Positions 50,814 through 63,929 of a stretch of DNA of 64,000 bases are shown here, piece after piece (position 1 is the stretch's first letter; each line of letters opens with the position of its first letter). The stretch is from Peptococcaceae bacterium BICA1-7 (lineage in GTDB: Bacteria > Bacillota > Desulfotomaculia > Desulfotomaculales > Desulfocucumaceae). A program made the translations under genes and the position numbers. The stretch lies in assembly GCA_000802095.1 (NCBI GenBank), contig JUEB01000015.1:124001-188000 (forward strand), written 5' to 3'. Under the pieces are notes generated by a model. The model made no database searches, was not told where the DNA came from, and saw only the letters and a list, made by a program, of their open reading frames with translations.

Positions 50814-52179
50814 GTTTCCGTCAGATGTGCGAGAGGACATACATGTCCTCGGTATACAGCTTAAGGACCTGCTGCTCTTTTTTATTCCTTCGGTCATTTT
50901 GGGAATCATTTGCTTTGCTATCCCCTTTCCGGTAGCTATACGATTTGTGTTAGCCCTGGCTTTACCCGCCGGCACGTTTTTGTGGCTGTTCTTTGATATG
51001 CCTGCCCTGTGTAGGCGCCGGCGGATCTTTAAAAAAGACCCTGATGTTCGAACTTCGGCTGAGGGCGACAACAACATCCATGAGATTATTACTGTCAGCG
51101 AGGTAGAAGGGCCGTTTGTTACTACTGATGACCAGTGCCTACATATATGTTTATCGGTTACAACTGGGCCATGGCTTACTAAGATTGAATCCGAGCGCGA
51201 CCAGTCAGGTCTTGTCTGGCAGCAGGTGGTGGGAAGGGTATTATCCCAGGGGTGCTTATTTGATACCTGGGCAATAAACGACCTTGAAGTACTGAATCCT
51301 GAGATGGACAGACAGAAAAAAGAACAGGCTCAATTACCGGAGGAGTTGCAAAAAATTGGCAGGGATAGACGGGAATACTGGACATTTTTAGGAACTTCCG
51401 GTTTTTCCCGCACTGTGTCATACTACCTGCGTATTTCTGCCGATCCTTTTGAGCTTGAGTTTAATCCAAAGCCCAAGAGTAAGATAGAGCGTTTTGATAA
51501 AACCAAGCAGCTCTTAGTCGAGCTGGCTGGTGATGTAATCCAGAAGCTGAGGTCCTCCGGAGATCAGGCCGTTGTAATATCCGGTGAAGTGCTGCGCGAT
51601 GTGGCTGCCCGGCAGCTGCAACCCCAGGACTACCGTGACGGCGCGGTGCGTGGGAGCGACTGGGTAAGGCCTGGAGGAAACAGTATTAAGCGAAAGGTTG
51701 AAAAGAAGGCGCCGGTTATCCAGGACCCCGGGAGGGAAAGAAAATTGCCTGCCCGGCCGGCAGAACCGGTGGAGGGAAAAGCAACTTTTCGGTGGCTAAT
51801 GTTGCTATATAAAGCAACCCTGTTATTGAGAAAACTTTGGCCATTGTACTCCAATTCGGTTTACGTGGTTTCGGTACTGCATTCCGGTGACGATGAAACC
51901 CCGGGCCTGGCCATGGTCATTAACGAACTGTATGCAGGATTTGATACAGTCTATAATGTTCCGATGGTCTACCGGGGTGATGATAGCCTGAATGAAGACG
52001 CTCAGAAGGCCTTGCGTACCGGTTATGTATATTTTGTAGTCCCTAACCCGGATGACTGGTCTGACGAGGAACTGACTGCTTTGACTCAGGACATATTGGC
52101 AGAGGCGGAACGTTATGGCTCCCGGGTAGACATTGCCCTGCAGTATCCTGACGGCCTTGCGTCGCAGCTGATAGCATGA
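50803..52179 (+). CDS. PrgI/VirB3-like T4SS protein with large C-terminal extension
   Basis: A 458-residue protein. Residues 1-75 match the PrgI-type domain of Gram-positive conjugation systems (MRVEFPSDVRED, then two membrane helices, LLLFFIPSVILGIICFAIPF and FVLALALPAGTFLWLFF), which corresponds to VirB3. The following 380 residues are soluble and of unknown fold, with a beta-rich part and a late YVVSVLHSGDDETPGLA region. The neighbour is VirB4, its usual partner. ATG 50803 has GAAGGTGA upstream. Confidence 0.66.
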   Translation: MRVEFPSDVREDIHVLGIQLKDLLLFFIPSVILGIICFAIPFPVAIRFVLALALPAGTFLWLFFDMPALCRRRRIFKKDPDVRTSAEGDNNIHEIITVSEVEGPFVTTDDQCLHICLSVTTGPWLTKIESERDQSGLVWQQVVGRVLSQGCLFDTWAINDLEVLNPEMDRQKKEQAQLPEELQKIGRDRREYWTFLGTSGFSRTVSYYLRISADPFELEFNPKPKSKIERFDKTKQLLVELAGDVIQKLRSSGDQAVVISGEVLRDVAARQLQPQDYRDGAVRGSDWVRPGGNSIKRKVEKKAPVIQDPGRERKLPARPAEPVEGKATFRWLMLLYKATLLLRKLWPLYSNSVYVVSVLHSGDDETPGLAMVINELYAGFDTVYNVPMVYRGDDSLNEDAQKALRTGYVYFVVPNPDDWSDEELTALTQDILAEAERYGSRVDIALQYPDGLASQLIA

Positions 52180-52193
52180 AGGAGGGAAGATGG

Positions 52194-54002
52194 ATGGAAC
52201 AAAAAATATCCGGACAAAGTTATAAGACTTATCTGGCGGCAATAGCCTCATCATTCCAAAAGCACCCCCAGCACACTATTGTTGGGGATAATGTTTATAC
52301 TCGTGTTCTACGGGGGGCGGCGTGGCCGGATAAACCTGTAGACACGGGTTTTTTACAGCTATTACACACATTAAGAGGGGTAAAAGCGCCACCAAACGTG
52401 GTAGTGGAAGTAATCTACCGGTATAGGAAAGCTGTTTTGGACTGGGGATGGCGGGCCAACTGGAAATACAACCGTCTCATTCAGAAGGTGAACGGTGAAC
52501 AAACACCTGATCCATCGGAAGTTAAAGCGCTGGATGCTATGAAAAAGTTAAAATCCGTTAATTATTACGGCGGTGCAGACACTGCAGATGTATGGATGTA
52601 CGTTGTTGTCCGCTCCATCGGTGACCCCGGATCAATGGATGCGGTATGCCGTAAGATAATGAATGACATGAAAGACATAGGGATAATGCTATCTCCGTTG
52701 ATCCAGGAACAACAACAGGCCTTCAGGGAAACTTTTGTCCTTGGCCGTTCTGATGAGACGTTCCAGAAAGCATACCCTGGACGTATTGTGCAGTTGGATG
52801 TTGTCTCATCGCTGTACCCGTTTCTTACCGGTTCAATAAATGACGGTCACGGTGGTTATTTTGGGCACTCAATAGCGACCAAAAGCGCTAATTTCGTTGA
52901 CCTTAAAAAAGGTTCGGGGAACCAGAACATTATTGTGATTGGTGCTTCTGGAGAGGGGAAGTCAACTTTCCTGCAAGCGATTATTGAAAGTTTGAGGGCG
53001 GAAGGCTTTCTGGTGATAGTCTTTGACATGAACGGCGAATACCGAAAAGTTTGCGAGAAAACCGGCGGTCTGTATATAGATCATACGTTGGCAACTGGTA
53101 AGTATATTGATCCCCTGGCAATACCGGACAAAATTGGCATTGCAGAAGAGGATGCCGGTAGACTTAATGCTGTTTCCGATGCGTTGATCTCTACGGTAAG
53201 CATATTGGCCGATGGAATTACACCTGGAGAACGTAATGCTGCTGACCGGGCACTTATGAAACTGTATGAAGCTGTTAAGATTGACATGGAAAACCCGCAA
53301 ACATGGGACTTCAATGACCAGCCATTCGATATTGAAGACTGGTGGAACGCACTTCAAAACGATAAGAATAAGGACGCACGTACCCTGTCGGAAAAGTTGG
53401 CCATTTATTTTACCGGCTCCAAGAGACATTTATTTAAGCACAGCGAGAAAATTACTATACCGACGGACTGTTCCCTGGTAGTATTCCAGGTCGGTACATC
53501 ATTGGAAGGCGCTGATGCCCAAGTGGGTGCGGCAAAAATGGCCATGACCATGAGTTTTGTACGGGATGTGCTGCGCAAGGAAAAGCTTAAAGGCAAAAGA
53601 TATACCGCAGTGGTATTTGATGAGGCTCAAAGGGCCTTGCTTAACCCCGAGATGTCTAACTACATTAACACTCTGGCCACGTTTATAAGGCACCTAAATG
53701 GCCTCCTTGTGGTATCGACCAATAAACCCCATGTATTCTGGGTTAATTCAACAGGTGGTGAGGGCGGTACCGGAATATGGGCCAACTCAAAATATAAGGT
53801 ATTTTTCTGGTTGGAGAATTCTGAGATTGCGGCAGTGGAAAAGAATGCGGAGATCCCGAAGGAAATAACCGACACCCTAAAAACCCTTTATCAGACTAAC
53901 CAGTTCCTAATCCGCCATCCTGACAGAGGGTGGGACCGCTGCAAAATGTACCTTCCTCCCGAGGAGTTAGCCTTATACGAGACAAGGGGGTTGAAGAAAT
54001 AA
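52194..54002 (+). CDS. VirB4-family conjugation ATPase
   Basis: A 602-residue ATPase with Walker A GASGEGKST (near 250), a VIVFDMNGEY strand, Walker B AVVFDEAQR (near 473) and a later motif NGLLVVSTNKPH. This is the layout of VirB4/TraU-type T4SS motors. The N-terminal 220 residues form the usual membrane-associated domain. ATG 52194 is preferred over ATG 52176 because AGGAGGG lies between them at the right distance. Stop overlaps the next start (TAATG). Confidence 0.86.
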   Translation: MEQKISGQSYKTYLAAIASSFQKHPQHTIVGDNVYTRVLRGAAWPDKPVDTGFLQLLHTLRGVKAPPNVVVEVIYRYRKAVLDWGWRANWKYNRLIQKVNGEQTPDPSEVKALDAMKKLKSVNYYGGADTADVWMYVVVRSIGDPGSMDAVCRKIMNDMKDIGIMLSPLIQEQQQAFRETFVLGRSDETFQKAYPGRIVQLDVVSSLYPFLTGSINDGHGGYFGHSIATKSANFVDLKKGSGNQNIIVIGASGEGKSTFLQAIIESLRAEGFLVIVFDMNGEYRKVCEKTGGLYIDHTLATGKYIDPLAIPDKIGIAEEDAGRLNAVSDALISTVSILADGITPGERNAADRALMKLYEAVKIDMENPQTWDFNDQPFDIEDWWNALQNDKNKDARTLSEKLAIYFTGSKRHLFKHSEKITIPTDCSLVVFQVGTSLEGADAQVGAAKMAMTMSFVRDVLRKEKLKGKRYTAVVFDEAQRALLNPEMSNYINTLATFIRHLNGLLVVSTNKPHVFWVNSTGGEGGTGIWANSKYKVFFWLENSEIAAVEKNAEIPKEITDTLKTLYQTNQFLIRHPDRGWDRCKMYLPPEELALYETRGLKK

Positions 54003-55006: not shown

Positions 55007-56872
55007 ATGTCCAGGAACAATAAGTCACAATCCAATGCTGAACCTCCATCAAAAGGAGCCGAAGAGCTGACTTTTAAGGAGCTGGTGCAGAACGCCATGA
55101 TTCTATCACTATTGGCAGGCTTCTTTTGTTTGGCCTGGTTGTGGGATTCCGGTATTCAGCACTTCTTTGACTTCCTGCCACGCCCATGGGTAATTACGGG
55201 CGCGGTATGGCTTATACTTGTGCCCACTGCATACTGTGCGGTGTTAATCTTGTTCTATAAAAGATTGGAAATATGGAGTTGGGTACATGCCCGGGCACAA
55301 AGGATGCCCGCACAGAATGATACGAAGAAGAGACCTGAGGGTGTGCTGGGGCTATTGCCTGCCCCATCCAAAGCTGAGTATGAACGCAGTGGCCAGGGAT
55401 ATGCAAAACAGGTCCCTCCAGCACTGGAACATGTTGGCCTTACCCAGGGGGGGCAGCGGGTAAAAATCGTTTCCGTAACTGATGGGCCTGCGGCGGCCCA
55501 GGTGGTAATTAGTCTGCCCCCTGGTTTGCGGCTATCAAGGCTTCAAAGTGCTGTCAAGGACATTCAGGTGGCTATAGGTGCTCCCGCGCTTCAAGTGCAG
55601 TCAGGGCCTAAAGCTTATACTGCCTCATTAATCATTACGCATGATGTTAAGCATTTGGTTGTGTTGCGAGAGATTCTTGAATCACCGGAATTTAAGGCTT
55701 TAAATGAAAAGCCAGATTTGCCGGTTCCAATTGGTGTTGATCCTGTAGGGAAACCTATACTGATAGGTTTAACCACCCTTGCTCATATTTTGGTTGCTGG
55801 TGCTACTAACTCCGGCAAGTCATGGTGGCTAAACCAATTACTTGTAACATGGACATTATTCCGTAGTCCTGAGCAGCTCAGGTTGGTGCTGATAGATCCA
55901 AAAATGGTGGAGTTATCAAGATATGCAAAACTTCCACATGTGATAGACGTGGTATATGATCCTGCCCCTGCATTAATGGTTTTGGACCGTGCAATTCAAG
56001 AGATGGAAAGGCGATATAAACTCTTTTTTAGAGTTGAGGCTGAAAATCTTGCCGAGTACCAGAAAGTAACGGGAAAACATTTGCCACATATAGGGATAGT
56101 GATAGATGAGATCGCTGATCTATTTTCTGCAGCCAACAAGGATGAAGCAAATGGACTGGAAAATGCATTCATGCGCTTAGCACAAAAAGCCCGTGCTGCC
56201 GGCATTCACCTGGTGGGCGCTACGCAACGCCCCTCAGCTGATGTTATACCTTCGAGGATCAGGACAAATTTCCCCTCACGTATTTGTTTCTCTTTGACTT
56301 CACCGGTTGACTATAAAACCGTTTTTGGTTTTGAGGTAGGAACTACCCTAACTGGCAAGGGTGACGGGCTGGCGAAGCTGGAAGGATATTTTGATTTGGT
56401 AAGATTCCAGGGCGTAGGAATAGGTGCATCGGGGTCGGATACACGAGATACAATTAAAAAAATATTGGCATATTGGCAAAAACGAAATGTTACACCAGCT
56501 TCCGTTCCTTCTTTTGATGGCCCTGATGACATAGATCAGTTTACTTCAGCCGAAATTGGCGATGAATTTTGTTTTGATCCAGATGAGTCTTGTTGGAGTA
56601 ATGAGAACAATAAGGCCGAGTGTGATATGAGCCCTAGAGACAAACTGCGGGCATATATATGCCGTTTGGTATTGGAAGCCGCAGAAGACGAAGTGGTTTA
56701 TTTACCTGACAGGCATACAGTTGCCCGCGAAGTAGGGATCCGTAACACTGTGTTAGACGAGCTATACCTGGCATTGGAAGCTGAGGAATGGATCTCTACT
56801 CCTGAAAGAGTTGGGAAAACGCAGAAAAGGAGAATTTTTATCGACTTTGAAAGAGCCCAAAGTTACCAGTAA
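55007..56872 (+). CDS. FtsK/SpoIIIE-type DNA translocase (putative coupling protein)
   Basis: A 621-residue protein with two N-terminal membrane helices, an FtsK alpha-like domain (about 130-240) and a RecA-like motor: Walker A GATNSGKSWW (near 267), LVLIDPKMVEL, Walker B GIVIDEIADL (near 366), and VGATQRPSADVIPS. The C-terminal 90 residues look like a winged helix. In Gram-positive elements FtsK-like pumps replace VirD4 as coupling protein (TcpA type) or move double-stranded DNA (Tra of Streptomyces). No relaxase is seen in the window to settle which. Confidence 0.85.
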   Translation: MSRNNKSQSNAEPPSKGAEELTFKELVQNAMILSLLAGFFCLAWLWDSGIQHFFDFLPRPWVITGAVWLILVPTAYCAVLILFYKRLEIWSWVHARAQRMPAQNDTKKRPEGVLGLLPAPSKAEYERSGQGYAKQVPPALEHVGLTQGGQRVKIVSVTDGPAAAQVVISLPPGLRLSRLQSAVKDIQVAIGAPALQVQSGPKAYTASLIITHDVKHLVVLREILESPEFKALNEKPDLPVPIGVDPVGKPILIGLTTLAHILVAGATNSGKSWWLNQLLVTWTLFRSPEQLRLVLIDPKMVELSRYAKLPHVIDVVYDPAPALMVLDRAIQEMERRYKLFFRVEAENLAEYQKVTGKHLPHIGIVIDEIADLFSAANKDEANGLENAFMRLAQKARAAGIHLVGATQRPSADVIPSRIRTNFPSRICFSLTSPVDYKTVFGFEVGTTLTGKGDGLAKLEGYFDLVRFQGVGIGASGSDTRDTIKKILAYWQKRNVTPASVPSFDGPDDIDQFTSAEIGDEFCFDPDESCWSNENNKAECDMSPRDKLRAYICRLVLEAAEDEVVYLPDRHTVAREVGIRNTVLDELYLALEAEEWISTPERVGKTQKRRIFIDFERAQSYQ

Positions 56873-57034: not shown

Positions 57035-59164
57035 ATGAAAACTTTACTCATCGCCGAAAAGCCCTCAGTTGCTCGGAACATCTCTGCCGTCCTTGGCAGA
57101 TTCAGCAGGCAGGAGGGATTCCTGGAAAACGACCAGTATGTAGTGTCCTGGGCCTATGGGCATATAACCACCCTGGCGGAACCCAAAGAATACGATCCTT
57201 CCTTCGAGAAATGGAGCTTAGAGAACATGCCGGTAATACCGAATGAAATTAAGCTCACTGTCACCGAGAGAAAGCAGTTTGCTATACTGAAAAAGCTGCT
57301 CAAAAGAAAAGATGTTTTAACGGTAATCAACGCTTGCGATGCGGGTCGCGAGGGATGCCTTATTTTTCGCTGGATATATAAAACGGCAAAGTCAGCCTTG
57401 CCTGTAAAACGCCTTTGGTTGTCAGAAACAACGCCTGCTGCTGTTATAAAAGCATTGAATTCTATGAAAGACGGATCCCAGTATGACAACCTCTATGCAG
57501 CTGCGGAGGCCAGGGCCATAAGTGACTGGCTGGTCGGCATAAATTCCACCAGGGCATTTACTGTAAAACACGGGGAACTACTTTCCATTGGCCGGGTGCA
57601 AACCCCTACACTGGCGATTATTGTGCAGCGGGAGCGAGAGATACGGGCATTTATTCCTGAGACATATTATCAATTAGCCGCAACATTTGAAACTGAGAGC
57701 AGAGAAAGATACCGGGGCGTTTTAATTAAAGACGAAAATCCCGGTAAATTCAAAGAAGAGTTTATAGCTAAAGGGTACGCCGAGCTGATTACGGATAATG
57801 GGACTGTTGTAAAGGCTTCCTATACCGAAAAAAACGAACCGCCTCCTACTTTGTTCAATCTAAACGACTTGCAAAGGGAAGCCAACCATGTTTATGGCAT
57901 GACGGCAGCCAAGGTTCTTGAAGTGGCACAGTCCCTTTATGAGAAGAAACTCATAACGTATCCCAGGACCGACAGTAGGCACCTATCTGAGTCACTGTCA
58001 GGTACCTTGAATAGACGGATCGAAACGGCGCTCAGAGCCGTTTCTTTAAATTCTCTCCCGGATTTTCAAAGTAATCTTGGGCCGAGGTATGTTGACGACG
58101 CTAAAATAACGGACCACCATGCAATAATACCTACAGAAATGCGTGCTAACGGAGATTTGTGGCCGGCTGAAAGCAATATATACGAACTCATCTGCCGCAG
58201 GTATCTGGCCATCTTTTTCCCGCCGGCCAGATACCGGGTAATGGAAGTAACCACTGGTGCTGGAGAAATGTTTTTTTCTAAAGGTAGAGCTGTCATAAGC
58301 TATGGATGGCGCCGGGTATATAGATTTAGCGCCGGTGAAGAAGACGAGGCCGGCGGATCCGGATTGCCTGCCCTTAACAAAGGCCAGGTGGTCAAGGTGG
58401 TTGATGTGGAGGTACTGAAAAAAGAAACCAGCCCGCCGGTGAGGTATACCGACGCCACGCTGCTGTATGCAATGGAGAATGCCGGCCGCCTGGTTGACGA
58501 TAAGGAACTGGCCAATACGCTGAAAAAGGCCGGAGGGATCGGGACGCCTGCTACCAGGGCGGCCACTCTGGAGCGGCTTATTAAAGTAAATTACGTCCAG
58601 CGGCAGAAAAAGTCACTACTTCCCACTGCCAAGGGCGAAACCCTTATAGACTTGGTGCCGGAAGCCTTAACGAACGTTGATACTACCGCAGAATGGGAAG
58701 ACGGGCTCCATAAAATCGAGCATGGAGAGATATCAGCTGAAGAATGGCTGTCCGGGATTAAAAACTTGACCCGAGATATCGTGGAAGGCGTAAAAGGACA
58801 AGCCCGAACCGTTAATATTATTGAGGAAGGAAGGGCCATAGGAAAATGTCCATTATGCGGCAAAGCTGTTATTGAAACAAAAAAGGCCTACAGCTGTTCG
58901 GGCTGGAGGGACGGTTGTAAATTCGTAATCTGGAAGGGCATCTCCGGCAAGAGGATTACAGCAAAACAGGCCCAGGAATTGATTAATAAGGGCAAGACCG
59001 GTGTGATTAAAGGCTTTAAATCAAAAAGCGGAAATAGCTTTGATGCCGCGTTGGTTATGGGGGCCGACGGCAAGGTTAAGATGAACTTTAGTGGTGACAG
59101 TAGAAGACAAGGCCTTTTGGATGTGGCTATTGCAAAGGTGGCAGGGCTTTTCAAACAGTGCTAA
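57035..59164 (+). CDS. topB: DNA topoisomerase III
   Basis: A 709-residue type IA topoisomerase. The Toprim start MKTLLIAEKPSVARNI and NACDAGREG are at 1-16 and about 98-106; the active Tyr is in TYPRTDSRH (near 309). A C-terminal zinc-type segment (CPLCGK, then CSGWRDGC) and the tail domain FKGFKSK-like/SFDAAL follow. Plasmid-borne TopB resolves replication and transfer intermediates and is a common part of large Gram-positive conjugative elements. ATG 57035 has GAAAGGAGA upstream. Confidence 0.92.
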   Translation: MKTLLIAEKPSVARNISAVLGRFSRQEGFLENDQYVVSWAYGHITTLAEPKEYDPSFEKWSLENMPVIPNEIKLTVTERKQFAILKKLLKRKDVLTVINACDAGREGCLIFRWIYKTAKSALPVKRLWLSETTPAAVIKALNSMKDGSQYDNLYAAAEARAISDWLVGINSTRAFTVKHGELLSIGRVQTPTLAIIVQREREIRAFIPETYYQLAATFETESRERYRGVLIKDENPGKFKEEFIAKGYAELITDNGTVVKASYTEKNEPPPTLFNLNDLQREANHVYGMTAAKVLEVAQSLYEKKLITYPRTDSRHLSESLSGTLNRRIETALRAVSLNSLPDFQSNLGPRYVDDAKITDHHAIIPTEMRANGDLWPAESNIYELICRRYLAIFFPPARYRVMEVTTGAGEMFFSKGRAVISYGWRRVYRFSAGEEDEAGGSGLPALNKGQVVKVVDVEVLKKETSPPVRYTDATLLYAMENAGRLVDDKELANTLKKAGGIGTPATRAATLERLIKVNYVQRQKKSLLPTAKGETLIDLVPEALTNVDTTAEWEDGLHKIEHGEISAEEWLSGIKNLTRDIVEGVKGQARTVNIIEEGRAIGKCPLCGKAVIETKKAYSCSGWRDGCKFVIWKGISGKRITAKQAQELINKGKTGVIKGFKSKSGNSFDAALVMGADGKVKMNFSGDSRRQGLLDVAIAKVAGLFKQC

Positions 59165-59206: not shown

Positions 59207-59458
59207 ATGAGCTTAGATAAGTCCACTAATATTCAGGATGAAACGGCTAGTATTTTGCCTTCTGCGGTTAAGAGGGCAACTGGTGATGAGATCCGGGCAA
59301 GTCTCCCGCCATACATACAGCATAGAATCAGGAAGACACAGGAAAAGCGAAAACGTGCGAGCTTTAACTATAAAACGGGGATGTTGCACGGCTCTAGACA
59401 CAAGCAGAATAAAATGAGCCCTCTAGCCTGGATAAGGAGTTTCTTTAAAGACCGGTGA
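59207..59458 (+). CDS. Small basic hypothetical protein
   Basis: An 83-residue protein from ATG 59207 with GATGAGGTG upstream. The second half is strongly basic (HRIRKTQEKRKRASFNYK). The start includes SILPSAVKRATGDEIRASLP. Not recognised. Its stop lies within the stem of a terminator. Confidence 0.5.
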   Translation: MSLDKSTNIQDETASILPSAVKRATGDEIRASLPPYIQHRIRKTQEKRKRASFNYKTGMLHGSRHKQNKMSPLAWIRSFFKDR

Positions 59459-59477
59459 AAGCGCCGGTCCTTTTTTT
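59450..59477 (+). terminator. Rho-independent terminator
   Basis: GACCGG (59450-59455) pairs with CCGGTC (59464-59469), then CTTTTTTT. It ends the topB unit, so the amidoligase cluster is a separate transcription unit. Confidence 0.8.
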
Positions 59478-59513
59478 ATGGCAGTTAATTCAACATGAGA
59501 GGAGTCATGACAA

Positions 59514-59747
59514 ATGCCAAAATCGAGAGCCAACCGGGCTGCTATAGCAATTGGCCGGGCGGCCACTGGGGGCGGGCCAATAGAGATGCCCGAAGAACTG
59601 GGGGATCTTTCGAACGTTGAAATGGCGGAAGCCATGCGTGAATGGGAAGAATCCCTGGCCGGGCTCCCCGATGATGAGGCCCAGCGTCAACGTCAGGAAA
59701 TTGCGCAGCTGATGGCTGAATTCCGGAGAAGCAGGGGGAGTGAGTAA
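59514..59747 (+). CDS. Small Ala/Glu-rich protein of the amidoligase cluster
   Basis: A 77-residue protein from ATG 59514 with GAGAGGAG upstream. The N-terminus is basic and Ala/Gly-rich (SRANRAAIAIGRAATGGG) and the rest is a charged helix with many Glu residues. Its stop overlaps the amidoligase start, so the two are translationally coupled. It could be an accessory subunit or a substrate carrying carboxylate groups; both ideas are inference. Confidence 0.55.
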   Translation: MPKSRANRAAIAIGRAATGGGPIEMPEELGDLSNVEMAEAMREWEESLAGLPDDEAQRQRQEIAQLMAEFRRSRGSE

Positions 59748-61162
59748 TGCCTGTCCTGAGAGAAGATGTTATCAGCCGGCTGCGGCGCCTTACTGCTCTA
59801 AATAATTCCCGGCAGCAATCTATTGAGGATGCCAGGCACCTGACCGAAGGCCCGTTTGAAATACAGGGAGACAATGGCACCATCATGCAGGTGTCCATTA
59901 ATGCCGAATCCAACCAGGTGGATACCGATACCGGTAACACCTACACTGTTGTAGGTGGCCTGTGTAATTGCCCGGATTTCGCACATACCGGATCCTGCGT
60001 CCACATCCAAGCGGCGGAACTTGTTCGTACCGGTTCTACTGGTTCGGAGAGGCCTGAAACTATCACTACAAACAGGGTAACATCGGAGACTCCGGAGGCA
60101 GTCAATGTGCAGGCCCGGGAAGAGGATAATCAACGCCGGAAGAGGCGGTCTCGTCTGGAGGTATGGCAGGAGCGCTATGGCGATGGACAGATGCTTTCCC
60201 AAGATGATGAGGCCTTTAAAAAGCTCTATAGTGCTGTAAAGACCGGAACAGCTATAGACTACGAATATGAAAATGTGCTTGCCGGCAGTGAGAACACTTT
60301 TGGCGTTGAAATTGAGTTTGCTGATGCTGACTTGCGTATAATTGCCCGGGAGCTTGGAGAGCTTGGAGTGGGAGATGGAGAAGTAGGTGGATATCACTCA
60401 AGCCGCCAGCAGGGAAAATGGACTGTTGAAACAGACGGTTCTGTGACTTGCGGTAGATACCGGGGCGGTGAAATAGTATCACCCGTTCTAAGAGATTGCC
60501 CTGAAACCTGGGAGCAGTTGGAGAAGATATGTGATGTTATTAAAAGACATGGCGGGAGAATTAATTCAAGCTGTGGGGGCCACGTTCATATCTGTGCTAA
60601 TCCCTTGGATGCACGGTCTTTTAGATGGAACCGGCTGATGAAGATCTGGGGCGGTTTTGAAGATGTTTTTTACCGTATGGCCTCCGGAGGCCAGTCCAAT
60701 GGGCAGTTTCGCGGCAGTACCTATGCGGCCCCGATAGCATCTATTCTTCCGTCGATGTTTTTCCGTGACCGTCAGACTGATGAATATGAAATTAAAAGAC
60801 ATGTGGGCAGCAGATATCACGGCCTGAACTTTCAAAATGCCAATACTGGTTCGTCAAAGAATACTGTAGAATTCCGGCTCTGGAATGGCAGCCTGGATCC
60901 GAGACAAATACAGGCGAATATAAAAACCTCAATGGCTGTTATTCATGCCTCCGAGATGGTTCGCAGAACCGATGAAGCCACGAGGGAAAGAGCCGGACTT
61001 ATTCCAATCAACCAAAGAATGCCTTATGGGCAAGCAAACAGTTCCGGTAAAGATCCGAATGACCACGCTGAAATCAAAAGTTTGTTAGATATATTGTTTG
61101 TAAGGGGGAAAGACAAGGCTACGGCCTTGTGGCTTTATGCCTCATCAAAATGGCAGCATTAA
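59747..61162 (+). CDS. SWIM zinc finger-amidoligase fusion protein
   Basis: A 471-residue protein. A SWIM finger CNCPDFAHTGSCVH (C73, C75, C84, H86) is followed by a charged linker and an amidoligase_2-type domain: FGVEIEF (185-191), WTVETDGSV (near 225), RGGEIVSPVL (near 239), SCGGHVHI (near 275) and VEFRLWNGSLDP (near 373). The Glu- and His-rich sites match the metal-ATP site of glutamate-cysteine-ligase/glutamine-synthetase-fold COOH-NH2 ligases. Such enzymes join a carboxylate to an amine. The SWIM part may bind nucleic acid or protein and so direct the ligase to a partner. Confidence 0.82.
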   Translation: MPVLREDVISRLRRLTALNNSRQQSIEDARHLTEGPFEIQGDNGTIMQVSINAESNQVDTDTGNTYTVVGGLCNCPDFAHTGSCVHIQAAELVRTGSTGSERPETITTNRVTSETPEAVNVQAREEDNQRRKRRSRLEVWQERYGDGQMLSQDDEAFKKLYSAVKTGTAIDYEYENVLAGSENTFGVEIEFADADLRIIARELGELGVGDGEVGGYHSSRQQGKWTVETDGSVTCGRYRGGEIVSPVLRDCPETWEQLEKICDVIKRHGGRINSSCGGHVHICANPLDARSFRWNRLMKIWGGFEDVFYRMASGGQSNGQFRGSTYAAPIASILPSMFFRDRQTDEYEIKRHVGSRYHGLNFQNANTGSSKNTVEFRLWNGSLDPRQIQANIKTSMAVIHASEMVRRTDEATRERAGLIPINQRMPYGQANSSGKDPNDHAEIKSLLDILFVRGKDKATALWLYASSKWQH

Positions 61163-61186
61163 CTTTTTTGGATTAACTGTCACATA

Positions 61187-61214
61187 TTGACAAGTTCCTA
61201 TAGTGTGATATAAT
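61187..61214 (+). promoter_or_regulatory. Near-consensus sigma-A promoter
   Basis: TTGACA (61187-61192) and TATAAT (61209-61214) are separated by 16 bases. It is the clearest promoter in the window and drives the 61255 regulator and probably the genes after it. Confidence 0.8.
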
Positions 61215-61237
61215 GATATCATAATATCATTGATATT
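61213..61237 (+). promoter_or_regulatory. Palindromic operator-like site at the promoter start
   Basis: ATGATATCAT (61213-61222) and AATATCATTGATATT (61223-61237) are two adjacent palindromes sharing TGATAT half-sites. They overlap the -10 box and the expected start of transcription, so a bound protein would block it. The product of the next gene is the natural candidate. Confidence 0.55.
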
Positions 61238-61254
61238 TAAGAGGGGCGGTTATT

Positions 61255-61512
61255 GTGACGACAAAAAAGGGCTTTTTCGCGCGGCTGGATGATGATCAAA
61301 TATCTGCATTATCCTTGATAGCAAACTATCGGGGAGAAACCCGGGAAAAATCTATCTTGGCGGCCTTCAAGCTCCTGGCAGAAAAAACTTTTTCGGAGGA
61401 AATACAGGCAGGGATTGATTTTCCAATGCAAAAACTTCCCTACCAGATCAACCTATATGATGTGCTTAAAACACTTGGTATCAGTCATTCGAATGAAAAT
61501 GAAAAGAAGTAG
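61255..61512 (+). CDS. Small putative DNA-binding regulator
   Basis: An 85-residue protein starting at GTG 61255 after AGAGGGGCGG. FFARLDDDQISALSLIANYR and REKSILAAFKLLAEK resemble the strand-helix-helix of small ribbon-helix-helix-type regulators, though the match is weak. The palindromic site directly upstream suggests self-repression. Confidence 0.5.
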   Translation: MTTKKGFFARLDDDQISALSLIANYRGETREKSILAAFKLLAEKTFSEEIQAGIDFPMQKLPYQINLYDVLKTLGISHSNENEKK

Positions 61513-61522
61513 GTGAGGTAAC

Positions 61523-61924
61523 ATGGCTAAACGTAAGAGGTTAAGTAGTGAACTGGTCTTTGTATATGGGACTCTTATGAGTGGGCACGGGAACCATTTC
61601 CACCTTACTGGTGCCCGGTTCCTTGGAAATGGCCAAGTAAATGGTCTGGGCCTATACGATGTGACCACATATTTCCCTGGAGCGATACGGGAAAACGGGA
61701 GCTCTATACTGGGAGAAATATATCAAGTGGACTCTGTAACCATGAATTCTCTTGATAGACTTGAGAGTAACGGTTCTTTATACTTGCGCGAAAAATTACC
61801 TGTTTTACTTAATGGGGAAGTAAACGTTGAAGCATGGGTGTATCTCTGGCTGAAAAAGAAAAAGGGTTACAAAGTTCCTTTGGAACAGCAGCCCTGGAGG
61901 AAGGTGAAATACAAGTGCAACTAA
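61523..61924 (+). CDS. Gamma-glutamylcyclotransferase-like (AIG2/GGCT fold) protein
   Basis: A 133-residue protein with the GGCT fingerprint FVYGTLMSGHGNH near residue 13, GLYDVTTYFPGAI, GEIYQVD with the probable catalytic Glu, and LDRLE. Enzymes of this family release 5-oxoproline from gamma-glutamyl amides. Beside an amidoligase and a class II amidotransferase it could remove or edit a gamma-glutamyl-type bond. The stop overlaps the next start. AGGTGAGG upstream. Confidence 0.82.
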   Translation: MAKRKRLSSELVFVYGTLMSGHGNHFHLTGARFLGNGQVNGLGLYDVTTYFPGAIRENGSSILGEIYQVDSVTMNSLDRLESNGSLYLREKLPVLLNGEVNVEAWVYLWLKKKKGYKVPLEQQPWRKVKYKCN

Positions 61925-62628
61925 AGCATATAGACCCCCATCAAAAGAAACTTCCAACACTTCCCCTGGTGGTCAAGGTGGGGGAGGAAATATACGAGGC
62001 CGACAGTATTCCGGCCCTGGTGGCCGCCGTAGTTGGACGTGAGTACCTGGACGTGCGCCAGGCAGATGCGGCCTGGAGTATGCGGGTTAACAGCGCCCGT
62101 CAGATTGCCGCATTTCTGGGGGTTGAAGGCATACCGGCCATCGTAAGGGATGAAACACGTTTGCTGGCCGACAATCGCCTTTGCCCGCCGGAAGAACAGG
62201 AGGAGATGAACGAAATAGAATGGCAGGATCGGGACCCCGTGGTTATATGGGCGGACCCCGAAAGAGCTTTTATTATCTCTCTTATGGAGGTTGACGTAAT
62301 AAGGGTGGGTGAGCTGCCTGACAGCTATATTCTCCGTGACGGTCCACCATGGAAGGGGATTAAATCTCAGAACTGTGGCCAGTGCCAATACATGGACAAC
62401 GAACTATGCGGAGTCTACGGAGGATGTAAGGCCCCAGAGGATGGGACAAGGTGTTCGGCGTTTGTACCAAGGCCTGCTAAGAAATCCGCACCCAAGAAAA
62501 AGGTTGAGCAACAATACATAGGGTTAGATATAAATGTGCCTTTGGCGGAAGCTGCATACATTCTTGACAGGAAAGGCTTGAACCAGACTGAATTGCAGGA
62601 CTTTTCAAGATGGTGGGAGGAGGGCTAA
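61915..62628 (+). CDS. Cys-cluster protein of the amidoligase cluster, unknown
   Basis: A 237-residue protein from GTG 61915 (GGAAGGTGAAATACAA upstream), overlapping the GGCT gene by 10 bases. The first 130 residues are alpha/beta with no clear motif. A middle region has CGQCQYM, LCGVYGGC and a further Cys, five Cys in about 27 residues, likely a zinc or iron-sulfur site. The C-terminal helix ends with FSRWWEEG. I do not recognise it; the tight coupling suggests it belongs to the pathway. Confidence 0.55.
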   Translation: MQLKHIDPHQKKLPTLPLVVKVGEEIYEADSIPALVAAVVGREYLDVRQADAAWSMRVNSARQIAAFLGVEGIPAIVRDETRLLADNRLCPPEEQEEMNEIEWQDRDPVVIWADPERAFIISLMEVDVIRVGELPDSYILRDGPPWKGIKSQNCGQCQYMDNELCGVYGGCKAPEDGTRCSAFVPRPAKKSAPKKKVEQQYIGLDINVPLAEAAYILDRKGLNQTELQDFSRWWEEG

Positions 62629-62631
62629 AAC

Positions 62632-63363
62632 ATGTGCCAGGTGCTGGGGATTTCCTATGCAAAGCCTTCACACTTCAACAAAGCATGGGACAAATTCAGG
62701 ATGAGAGCTGATAAGAACCCGGATGGTTGGGGCATCGCTTATGGTGGTAGCCAGGGCCTGACTGTGGTGAAAGAGCCCCATCGGGCAGACTGGTCTCCTT
62801 TGGCAGCTGCGATAGGTATGGCGCCATTGCCTGCCCCCATGATGATTGGCCATATCCGCCGGGCAACCCGGGGCGTCTTCGCCCTGGTCAATACCCACCC
62901 GTTCTTTGCTCAGGCAGGCGGCCGTGACTGGGCTATGGTTCACAACGGAAGCCTTTCGGGATATGGTTATTCTCCAGGCCAGCACGGGCAGACCGACTCA
63001 GAGGCTTTCTTTTTAAGGTTTGTTGACCAATTGGATAGCTCTGGCCAGGGTCATCCTTATGACGTGGCTGAAGTGGTCGCAGAGGAGATCCAGGATGCCG
63101 GCAGGCACGGCAAATTAAATATTCTTTTGACCGACGGTGAAAGCCTTTTTGTACATACCAATCTTCCGGGAAGTCTGTATCAACTGCAGACCCGTGCCGG
63201 TATAATGCTTTGCAGTAAACCCCTGACCCGCCAGCGCGGGTGGAAACCCGTTGAGACGAACAGAGTGTTTATATATCAGGCAGGGGAGTTTGTATACCGG
63301 ACAAGTGTTATTCATTCTGCTAACAGTGAATACACGGATTTTCAGTGGGTGACCCATTTTTAA
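62632..63363 (+). CDS. Class II glutamine amidotransferase (YafJ/EgtC-like)
   Basis: A 243-residue protein starting MCQVLGISY, so the N-terminal Cys (C2) becomes the nucleophile after Met removal. Further GATase II landmarks are PDGWGIAYGG, GHIRRATRG, NTHPFF and MVHNGSLSGY with the oxyanion Asn. The domain frees ammonia from glutamine or acts as an amidase in YafJ and EgtC relatives. Located 3 bases after the Cys-cluster gene. It is a stand-alone domain, so ammonia or a gamma-glutamyl product would pass to a partner such as the amidoligase. Confidence 0.85.
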   Translation: MCQVLGISYAKPSHFNKAWDKFRMRADKNPDGWGIAYGGSQGLTVVKEPHRADWSPLAAAIGMAPLPAPMMIGHIRRATRGVFALVNTHPFFAQAGGRDWAMVHNGSLSGYGYSPGQHGQTDSEAFFLRFVDQLDSSGQGHPYDVAEVVAEEIQDAGRHGKLNILLTDGESLFVHTNLPGSLYQLQTRAGIMLCSKPLTRQRGWKPVETNRVFIYQAGEFVYRTSVIHSANSEYTDFQWVTHF

Positions 63364-63383
63364 GAAAGGCGGTGCTGCAGTCA

Positions 63384-63929
63384 ATGAAAAAGAATGGTAA
63401 AGTGTTATGCTTTCCAGGGGTGAACATGGATCCATCTGCACAACCAAAAAAGGCCAAAAGAATAAAACCCCCTTATATATGGACTGGAATTGCAGCTTTT
63501 TGGGGGCTGATGGTATTGCTTGCAGCTTTGGATGCGGGCAGCGTGTGGAGATTTATTGGAGACATTATAGGTAATGGTATTTTTATATTTGGACCTTTTG
63601 CGATAATCGCATGGTTTTCATGGCACAAGACAGAGTTTGTCACTGCTTCAACGACTGCGGAGGTTCAAAGCATCCGTCATTCGGGAGACAGTGGCTGGGT
63701 AATTGGGCTGTGCCTGCCGGAGTTTGGCAATAAATTAATTACCACTACTATGCCTAATCAGGCTAAATTCTCTCTGGGAGATAGGATTGATGTGGTGGTT
63801 TCAGCGCTGCGGCGTAAACATTTCCCTGAATATGTTCATTCCGTGCGGTTGGAAACCCTTGCGACAAGTAATACTGAAAGAATAAAAGGGTTGAGGATTA
63901 TTGAAGACAAAGCATTTAGCAAGAGATAA
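63384..63929 (+). CDS. Membrane protein with C-terminal soluble domain
   Basis: A 181-residue protein from ATG 63384 (AAAGGCGG upstream): a short basic start, two membrane helices (WTGIAAFWGLMVLLAALDAG; IIGNGIFIFGPFAIIAWFSW) and a 95-residue soluble beta-rich domain (GWVIGLCLPEFGNKLITTTM). It ends the cluster. Not recognised. The remaining 63930-64000 holds no feature I can support. Confidence 0.55.
   Translation: MKKNGKVLCFPGVNMDPSAQPKKAKRIKPPYIWTGIAAFWGLMVLLAALDAGSVWRFIGDIIGNGIFIFGPFAIIAWFSWHKTEFVTASTTAEVQSIRHSGDSGWVIGLCLPEFGNKLITTTMPNQAKFSLGDRIDVVVSALRRKHFPEYVHSVRLETLATSNTERIKGLRIIEDKAFSKR

Follow-up and report, generated by a model that had tools for sequence, protein, structure and literature searches.

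A 64,000-nucleotide stretch of the Peptococcaceae bacterium BICA1-7 genome (contig JUEB01000015.1, here C15, positions 124,001-188,000; hereafter the window, whose own numbering we use unless a contig or locus is named) carries on its forward strand a compact set of genes for a SWIM-amidoligase (59747-61162), a GGCT/AIG2-like protein (61523-61924), a cysteine-cluster protein that we call CYS (61915-62628) and a stand-alone class II glutamine amidotransferase (GAT-II; 62632-63363). An earlier note, made from the sequence, had proposed a new amide-bond modification system here, and all four genes lie where it had placed them or very near. The cassette extends beyond the window end to a DUF4417 (PF14386) gene at C15:190607-191623, which places it approximately 3.2 kb beyond GAT-II and 2.6 kb outside the window. 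We find that this gene set is a conserved cassette and not a chance assembly, and that its most informative member is DUF4417, whose model has the fold of tRNA-guanine transglycosylases (TGT). The cassette probably marks the DNA or the proteins of its own element in a way not yet described. The reading that we favour, with a probability of roughly 0.4, is a base-modification system of mobile elements that would finish with ATP-dependent amide formation, the element's own DNA being the most likely target.

A conserved cassette built around a SWIM-amidoligase

In Pfam profile searches the 471-residue amidoligase of the window matches PF12224 at E=3.7e-24 (86.4 bits, cut-off 22), with its Amidoligase_2 domain spanning residues 183-398 (60293-60940). 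Alignments of seven and of nine homologs retain the active-site residues, one of the two points on which the earlier proposal could have failed: E188, E190, E242, H279, E375, R377 and N380 are invariant in both, and the ExE, His and ExR residues can be equated with those of glutamine synthetase (GS) by motif order rather than by superposition. An AlphaFold2 model (pLDDT 74) has as its best structural match the YbdK-type protein 1tt4 (Z 12.7, root-mean-square deviation (rmsd) 3.9 over 238 residues), followed by glutamine synthetases and glutamate-cysteine ligase, so that the list is led by GS-superfamily ligases of the carboxylate-amine type. The model shows a GS fold and, with its active-site motifs retained, the protein appears to be an intact enzyme. 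Its N terminus adds a single SWIM-type motif, found by pattern (CxCx8CxH, residues 73-86, 59963-60004), whose ligands C73, C75, C84 and H86 are invariant in the same two alignments; the Pfam SWIM profile returned no match to the window protein. In the literature that we found, SWIM zinc fingers and amidoligases are not joined. Against PDB sequences, the profiles of amidoligase, CYS and DUF4417 produced chance matches only.

The neighbourhood recurs in other genomes, as the earlier proposal required. A single-sequence query with the window protein found nothing in the genome contigs; an alignment-based search succeeded. Full-length SWIM-amidoligases are present in six of 113 genomes of the same order, at seven loci, and the genomes with CYS are precisely these six (Fisher p ~4e-10, an optimistic value that treats the 113 genomes as independent). 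DUF4417 occurs in nine of these genomes, including all six with amidoligase and CYS (p ~3e-8 on the same assumption). When 398 genomes were drawn more widely from the phylum, four had CYS, two of them with the gene beside an amidoligase. Two distant CYS-like genes (in genomes G336 and G263) have no amidoligase nearby, one of them adjoining a Cas9-sized open reading frame (ORF).

The fullest match to the window comes from an isolate, Desulfovirgula thermocuniculi DSM 16036, which has the small regulator described below, GAT-II, GGCT, amidoligase, CYS and DUF4417. The window's own genome holds a second cassette (L005; G000:C1:141000-160500) with ParB, an 85-residue protein, DUF4417, an amidoligase with a fused MPKGR-Gly tail, an HTH_59 protein, CYS and a serine recombinase. 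Two phage contigs carry contiguous sets, DUF4417-amidoligase-GAT-II-CYS on one (L064) and ParB-DUF4417-RimK-like ATP-grasp-amidoligase-CYS on the other (L124); repeated viral scans returned the first again, plus the second. The order is DUF4417-CYS-amidoligase-ATP-grasp in genome G208 (L116), where two N6_N4 DNA methylase ORFs adjoin, and amidoligase-CYS-topB-DNA ligase in Paenibacillus sp. HGH0039 (L058). The placement beside topB, which the earlier note had singled out, thus recurs in Paenibacillus but is not general. Streptomyces plasmids carry a ParB-DUF4417 pair followed by three amidoligases, a CYS-like protein of weak similarity that lacks the cysteine cluster, GAT-II and GGCT. ParB-domain or DNA-methyltransferase genes often adjoin the DUF4417-amidoligase-CYS sets.

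The partner genes within the window differ in how constant they are. CYS (237 residues) belongs to no family in Pfam, NCBIfam or PHROGs; C154, C157, C165 and C180 are invariant across seven homologs, and a pattern scan for viral relatives found none. Its most likely start is the GTG at 61915 and not 61834, from which the longer frame would overlap the GGCT gene. The amidotransferase is indeed of class II, but it belongs to GATase_4 (PF13230, E=1.4e-39, 136 bits) and not to GATase_6, the profile that the earlier note had named together with amidoligase_2 and GGCT, both of which matched. It is YafJ/EgtC-like: its cysteine nucleophile follows directly on Met1, C2, R76, N105, G106 and D122 are invariant among four homologs, and its nearest solved relatives include YafJ-like 1te5 (E=1.5e-37) and EgtC-type amidohydrolases. 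The GGCT/AIG2-like protein (PF06094, E=2.2e-27, 96.4 bits) matches YtfP (1xhs, E=1.5e-13) and has the YGTL motif and, within LDRLE, a catalytic-type Glu81 that is kept at locus L035. GGCT occurs in the window, in D. thermocuniculi and on the Streptomyces plasmids and is an accessory member of the cassette. Conservation and intact ligase motifs therefore uphold an amide-bond cassette, whereas the full cycle of ligation and editing that had been envisaged is not a core property, since GGCT is only accessory.

A TGT-like partner and the case for base modification

We modelled DUF4417 from a homolog at locus L053 with a six-sequence alignment (pLDDT 77, pTM 0.79). The top 50 PDB matches of this model are all TGT enzymes (Z 17.9-18.9), with 1iq8 at Z 18.9 and an rmsd of 3.7 over 255 residues, which gives DUF4417 a TGT fold in its predicted structure. 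The N-terminal segment, with approximately ten conserved cysteines, is poorly defined by the model. The literature that we found assigns DUF4417 no function; ParB-DUF4417 fusions in phages have been published (PMC12704722).

This fold, the ParB and DNA-methyltransferase neighbours and two published precedents together lead us to favour base modification, probably of DNA. In the first precedent, the ParB-associated CmoX/CmoY system, a carboxyl handle is put on cytosine and then amidated (PMC12783734); in the second, DpdA and Gat-QueC, a GAT-fused QueC, make dG+ in phage DNA (PMC6884629). The earlier note had left the target as a protein or something linked to DNA, and the TGT fold and the frequent siting of cassettes beside ParB or DNA-methyltransferase genes support a nucleic-acid-linked one. 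On this basis DUF4417, with its TGT fold and cysteine-rich N terminus, would bind or place a nucleobase, plausibly a carboxylate-capable base of the 7-deazaguanine type. The SWIM finger would hold the GS-fold amidoligase on nucleic acid, where the enzyme would activate the carboxylate with ATP and join it to ammonia or an amine. GAT-II would supply ammonia from glutamine or else trim gamma-glutamyl groups, and GGCT, where present, would remove gamma-glutamyl-amines; CYS would act as an obligate small partner that probably binds zinc. The element would probably benefit by being shielded from restriction. The host itself carries TGT and QueC genes of the ordinary kind, so 7-deazaguanine precursors may be available there.

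Several observations weigh against this reading. Profile-profile similarity between DUF4417 and TGT is weak (8%) and has no significant probability, so the claim of a shared fold rests on the model; the same comparison does pair the C-terminal ARxG of DUF4417 with the PTRxARxG stretch of TGT. In TGT enzymes, two aspartates act as nucleophile and as acid/base. At the corresponding positions of 17 DUF4417 homologs, compared by profile and by hand alignment, that of D280 (Zymomonas mobilis TGT numbering) is T, N, D or S and that of D102 is hydrophobic or small. With no conserved aspartate at either position, we regard DUF4417 as TGT-like in fold without classing it among the TGT enzymes; it may bind a base without catalysis. 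GAT-II and GGCT are absent from some cassettes, DUF4417 is found on many plasmids and genomes that have no amidoligase, and there is no ParB near the window's own locus. Phage LUZ24 has amidoligase, GAT-II, ATP-grasp and GGCT with neither DUF4417 nor CYS detectable.

The phage cluster of the LUZ24/phiEco32 type is among the closest known arrangements to the cassette. The association of amidoligase, AIG2 and GAT-II that the earlier note cited from comparative genomics reportedly goes back to Iyer et al. (2009), as papers citing that work have it. The trio was already known from phage genomes (PMC3890496), and the LUZ24-type cluster resembles the window in combining Amidoligase_2, a class II amidotransferase and GGCT on a mobile genome. 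Its amidoligase matches the cassette model weakly (E=0.0038), its amidotransferase is 510 residues long, twice the size of the cassette's, and no SWIM motif, DUF4417 or CYS homolog was detected in LUZ24. When LUZ24 gp14, gp15 and gp17 were examined as candidates for an unrecognized DUF4417 or CYS, none held up. Among the loci searched, the cluster's RimK-like ATP-grasp protein has a counterpart only in L116 and L124, and no counterpart of its COOH-NH2 ligase was identified. The cassette departs from the known amidoligase-GAT-II-GGCT core, and counts as new, by its SWIM fusion, its CYS and TGT-fold members and the common tails described below.

Two known base-modification systems share some features with the cassette. 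The DpdA/Gat-QueC systems of phage 9g and the Dpd islands share with the cassette a TGT-fold protein, a class II amidotransferase, an ATP-dependent amide or amidine step and carriage on mobile DNA (PMC6884629). However, we noticed no homolog of QueC, QueD, QueE or FolE among the genes of the cassettes, which have a GS-fold ligase in place of QueC, and DUF4417 differs from DpdA in lacking the TGT aspartates and in its cysteine-rich N-terminal part. In CmoX/CmoY of Synechococcus phage S-B43, likewise, an amide ligase works on a carboxyl group and has ParB neighbours, and some of these ligases carry a glutamine-hydrolysing domain (PMC12783734); yet CmoY is asparagine-synthetase-like and CmoX is a methyltransferase homolog, and neither was seen in the cassettes. 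If base modification is correct, amide-based base hypermodification would be carried by conjugative elements and plasmids and not only by phages, and DUF4417 would be given both a fold and a setting in chemistry. It would then be easier to see why mobile genomes repeatedly carry amidoligases together with GGCT proteins and amidotransferases of class II. The compact cassettes of the two phage contigs and of D. thermocuniculi are open to direct testing.

Shared N-terminal tails and competing explanations

The DUF4417 loci also encode unrelated proteins that have a common, locus-specific N-terminal tail. On five Streptomyces and Kitasatospora plasmids with DUF4417 and no amidoligase, two large proteins with unrelated bodies both carry MGT(G/N)SK(S/T)SH, and one of these pairs (L136) was also recovered by an N-terminus scan. 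On plasmids that do carry amidoligases, paralogs begin MGSG(S/T)RIDHQHH; at L116 (M/V)PKRRS opens the amidoligase as well as the ATP-grasp protein; and at L139, a locus from Bacillota, the two large plasmid proteins have homologs with MGGG(S/G)KKK in common, their BLAST match being limited to the first 35 residues (E=8e-4). A control scan of 17 loci (4449 pairs) found no unrelated pair with at least nine of 15 identical positions. In the window the tail (MPKSR...GGG) is on a 77-residue Glu-rich protein at 59514-59747 and not on the amidoligase. The large-protein pair with a shared tail, seen at DUF4417 loci that have no amidoligase (L065:8553-13432, L135:8555-13446, L136:8419-13370, L068:8394-13369 and L139:575-4901), is conserved between Actinomycetota plasmids and Bacillota, and one of its two bodies looks kinase-like by eye.

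These tails suggest a likeness to those of Qat and of type IV CBASS (cyclic-oligonucleotide-based anti-phage signalling system), where conserved N termini (MGTS/MGGS) also stand beside an enzyme of a 7-deazaguanine family: QueC-family proteins deazaguanylate the MGGS tails of type IV CBASS, and the same has been proposed for the MGTS tail of QatB (PMC13279940). There the enzyme is of the QueC family, whereas DUF4417 loci have a TGT fold and tails that lie on several unrelated proteins and differ by locus. The tails thus relate to this newly described N-terminal deazaguanylation in anti-phage defence, and they offer a simple handle on how modification enzymes are recruited or tagged. The cassette as a whole also has a credible but unproven route to something more novel. 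Along it, a TGT-fold DUF4417 would handle the base and read the tails, which would recruit interchangeable enzymes (SWIM-amidoligase, ATP-grasp or large proteins) to assemble on the element either hypermodified bases with amide links or conjugates of base and protein, in a system spread across phyla on conjugative elements, plasmids and phages; we offer this extension tentatively and consider it rather doubtful.

The tails could instead be the substrate. DUF4417 would then recognize or modify them as a form of protein N-terminal tagging, the bearers being the amidoligase, the ATP-grasp protein, the small protein or the large partner proteins. The occurrence of one tail on unrelated proteins of the same locus (Streptomyces plasmids, L116 and L139), the lack of any such pair among the 4449 of the control loci and the published precedent (PMC13279940) argue for this explanation, which we nevertheless judge unlikely. 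The tails of the Bacillota cassettes begin Met-Pro and not Met-Gly, which cautions against presuming identical chemistry; the window amidoligase has no tail, and a tail may be a mere docking or delivery signal.

A target in a peptide, a metabolite or the cell envelope, with DUF4417 an independent conjugation or replication gene, seems to us similarly improbable. It would account for LUZ24, whose gp16-gp22 encode amidoligase, GAT-II, RimK-like ATP-grasp and GGCT without DUF4417 or CYS, and it agrees with the cell-wall proposal for phage amidoligase clusters cited in PMC11318856, with the occurrence of DUF4417 apart from amidoligases and with a putative membrane protein gene that follows GAT-II at two loci. 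It fits poorly with the tight adjacency of DUF4417, amidoligase and CYS across phages, plasmids and chromosomes, with a SWIM finger that points to nucleic-acid or protein binding, and with the ParB and DNA-methyltransferase neighbours.

Because the closest solved structures to DUF4417 act on tRNA, tRNA might be modified rather than DNA, with altered decoding in the host. We think this very unlikely given a neighbourhood of DNA handling (ParB, DNA methyltransferases, topB and DNA ligase), the published ParB-DUF4417 phage fusions (PMC12704722) and the missing TGT aspartates. Most improbable is a Pup-like role for the small protein at 59514, the ligation target named in the earlier note: its gene is translationally coupled to the amidoligase (the TAA stop overlaps the next ATG as TAATG, confirming the coupling noted earlier), it is Glu-rich, the window copy ends in Glu, and PafA and Dop are in the Foldseek list for the ligase model, but homologs occur only at L031 (two copies) and L032, that is, at three loci including the window, none was found at L005, L033, L034, L035, L116 or L064, and the C-terminal residue varies (E, N or R) where a Pup-type modifier would be a conserved small protein with a constant Glu or Gln. 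With so few loci and a C terminus that is not conserved, this protein is not supported as the substrate.

Other features of the locus

The 59514 protein was also considered as a fission product of the amidoligase N terminus and rejected, as loci with the fusion share only the MPKxR-Gly tail and not the helical part. A 218-residue protein between CYS and GAT-II at L031:7928-8584 repeats that helical part in its C terminus (E=2.8e-10). An intrinsic terminator at 59450-59479 (8-bp stem, six GC pairs, T-run) parts the cassette from an upstream small gene. The strong promoter described in the earlier note is a sigma-70 consensus, TTGACA-16-TATAAT with a TG extension, at 61187-61214 (12/12 match), and it precedes an ORF for an 85-residue putative regulator (61255-61512) whose homolog stands before the GAT-II gene in D. 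thermocuniculi (54% identity, E=3.5e-18). The putative membrane protein (194 residues, 63345-63929) is an ORF with a homolog after GAT-II at L031 (E=1.3e-11).

The conjugative setting is borne out by a TraG-type P-loop ATPase of the conjugation apparatus (52176-54002), an FtsK/SpoIIIE-type conjugation ATPase (55007-56872) and DNA topoisomerase III (topB; 57035-59164), all three forward-strand genes upstream of the cassette, together with a tyrosine recombinase identified by sequence approximately 8.5 kb beyond the GAT-II gene, outside the window. These genes suggest that the locus sits at the end of a conjugative element nearest its recombinase. Further downstream, this genome has a DNA ligase gene as well (L004).

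PADLOC models gave no match for amidoligase, GGCT, CYS, GAT-II, DUF4417 or ATP-grasp. Defence-related genes were observed near several of the loci. A CYS-like gene without amidoligase at L117:12001-18800 stands a few kb before a Cas9-sized ORF, and the same stretch has Cas1- and Cas2-like ORFs and, by eye, a repeat array read as coding. DndD and DndE, of DNA phosphorothioation, lie at L061:2351-4769 near a ParB-DUF4417-amidoligase locus on a Nonomuraea plasmid. Adjoining the tyrosine recombinase of the window's element, an AAA ATPase with a C-terminal TIR-like part (L004:11136-12665) matches the PADLOC PDC-S59/PDC-S66 and TIR-Ago models. Approximately 9 kb past the cassette, also outside the window, is a Qat defence system (L004:14090-18865; G000:C15:197089-201864) in which QatA (E=2.6e-93) and QatC (E=6.9e-98) are accompanied by a TatD-like gene and by a protein of QatB size that begins MGTSKGY.

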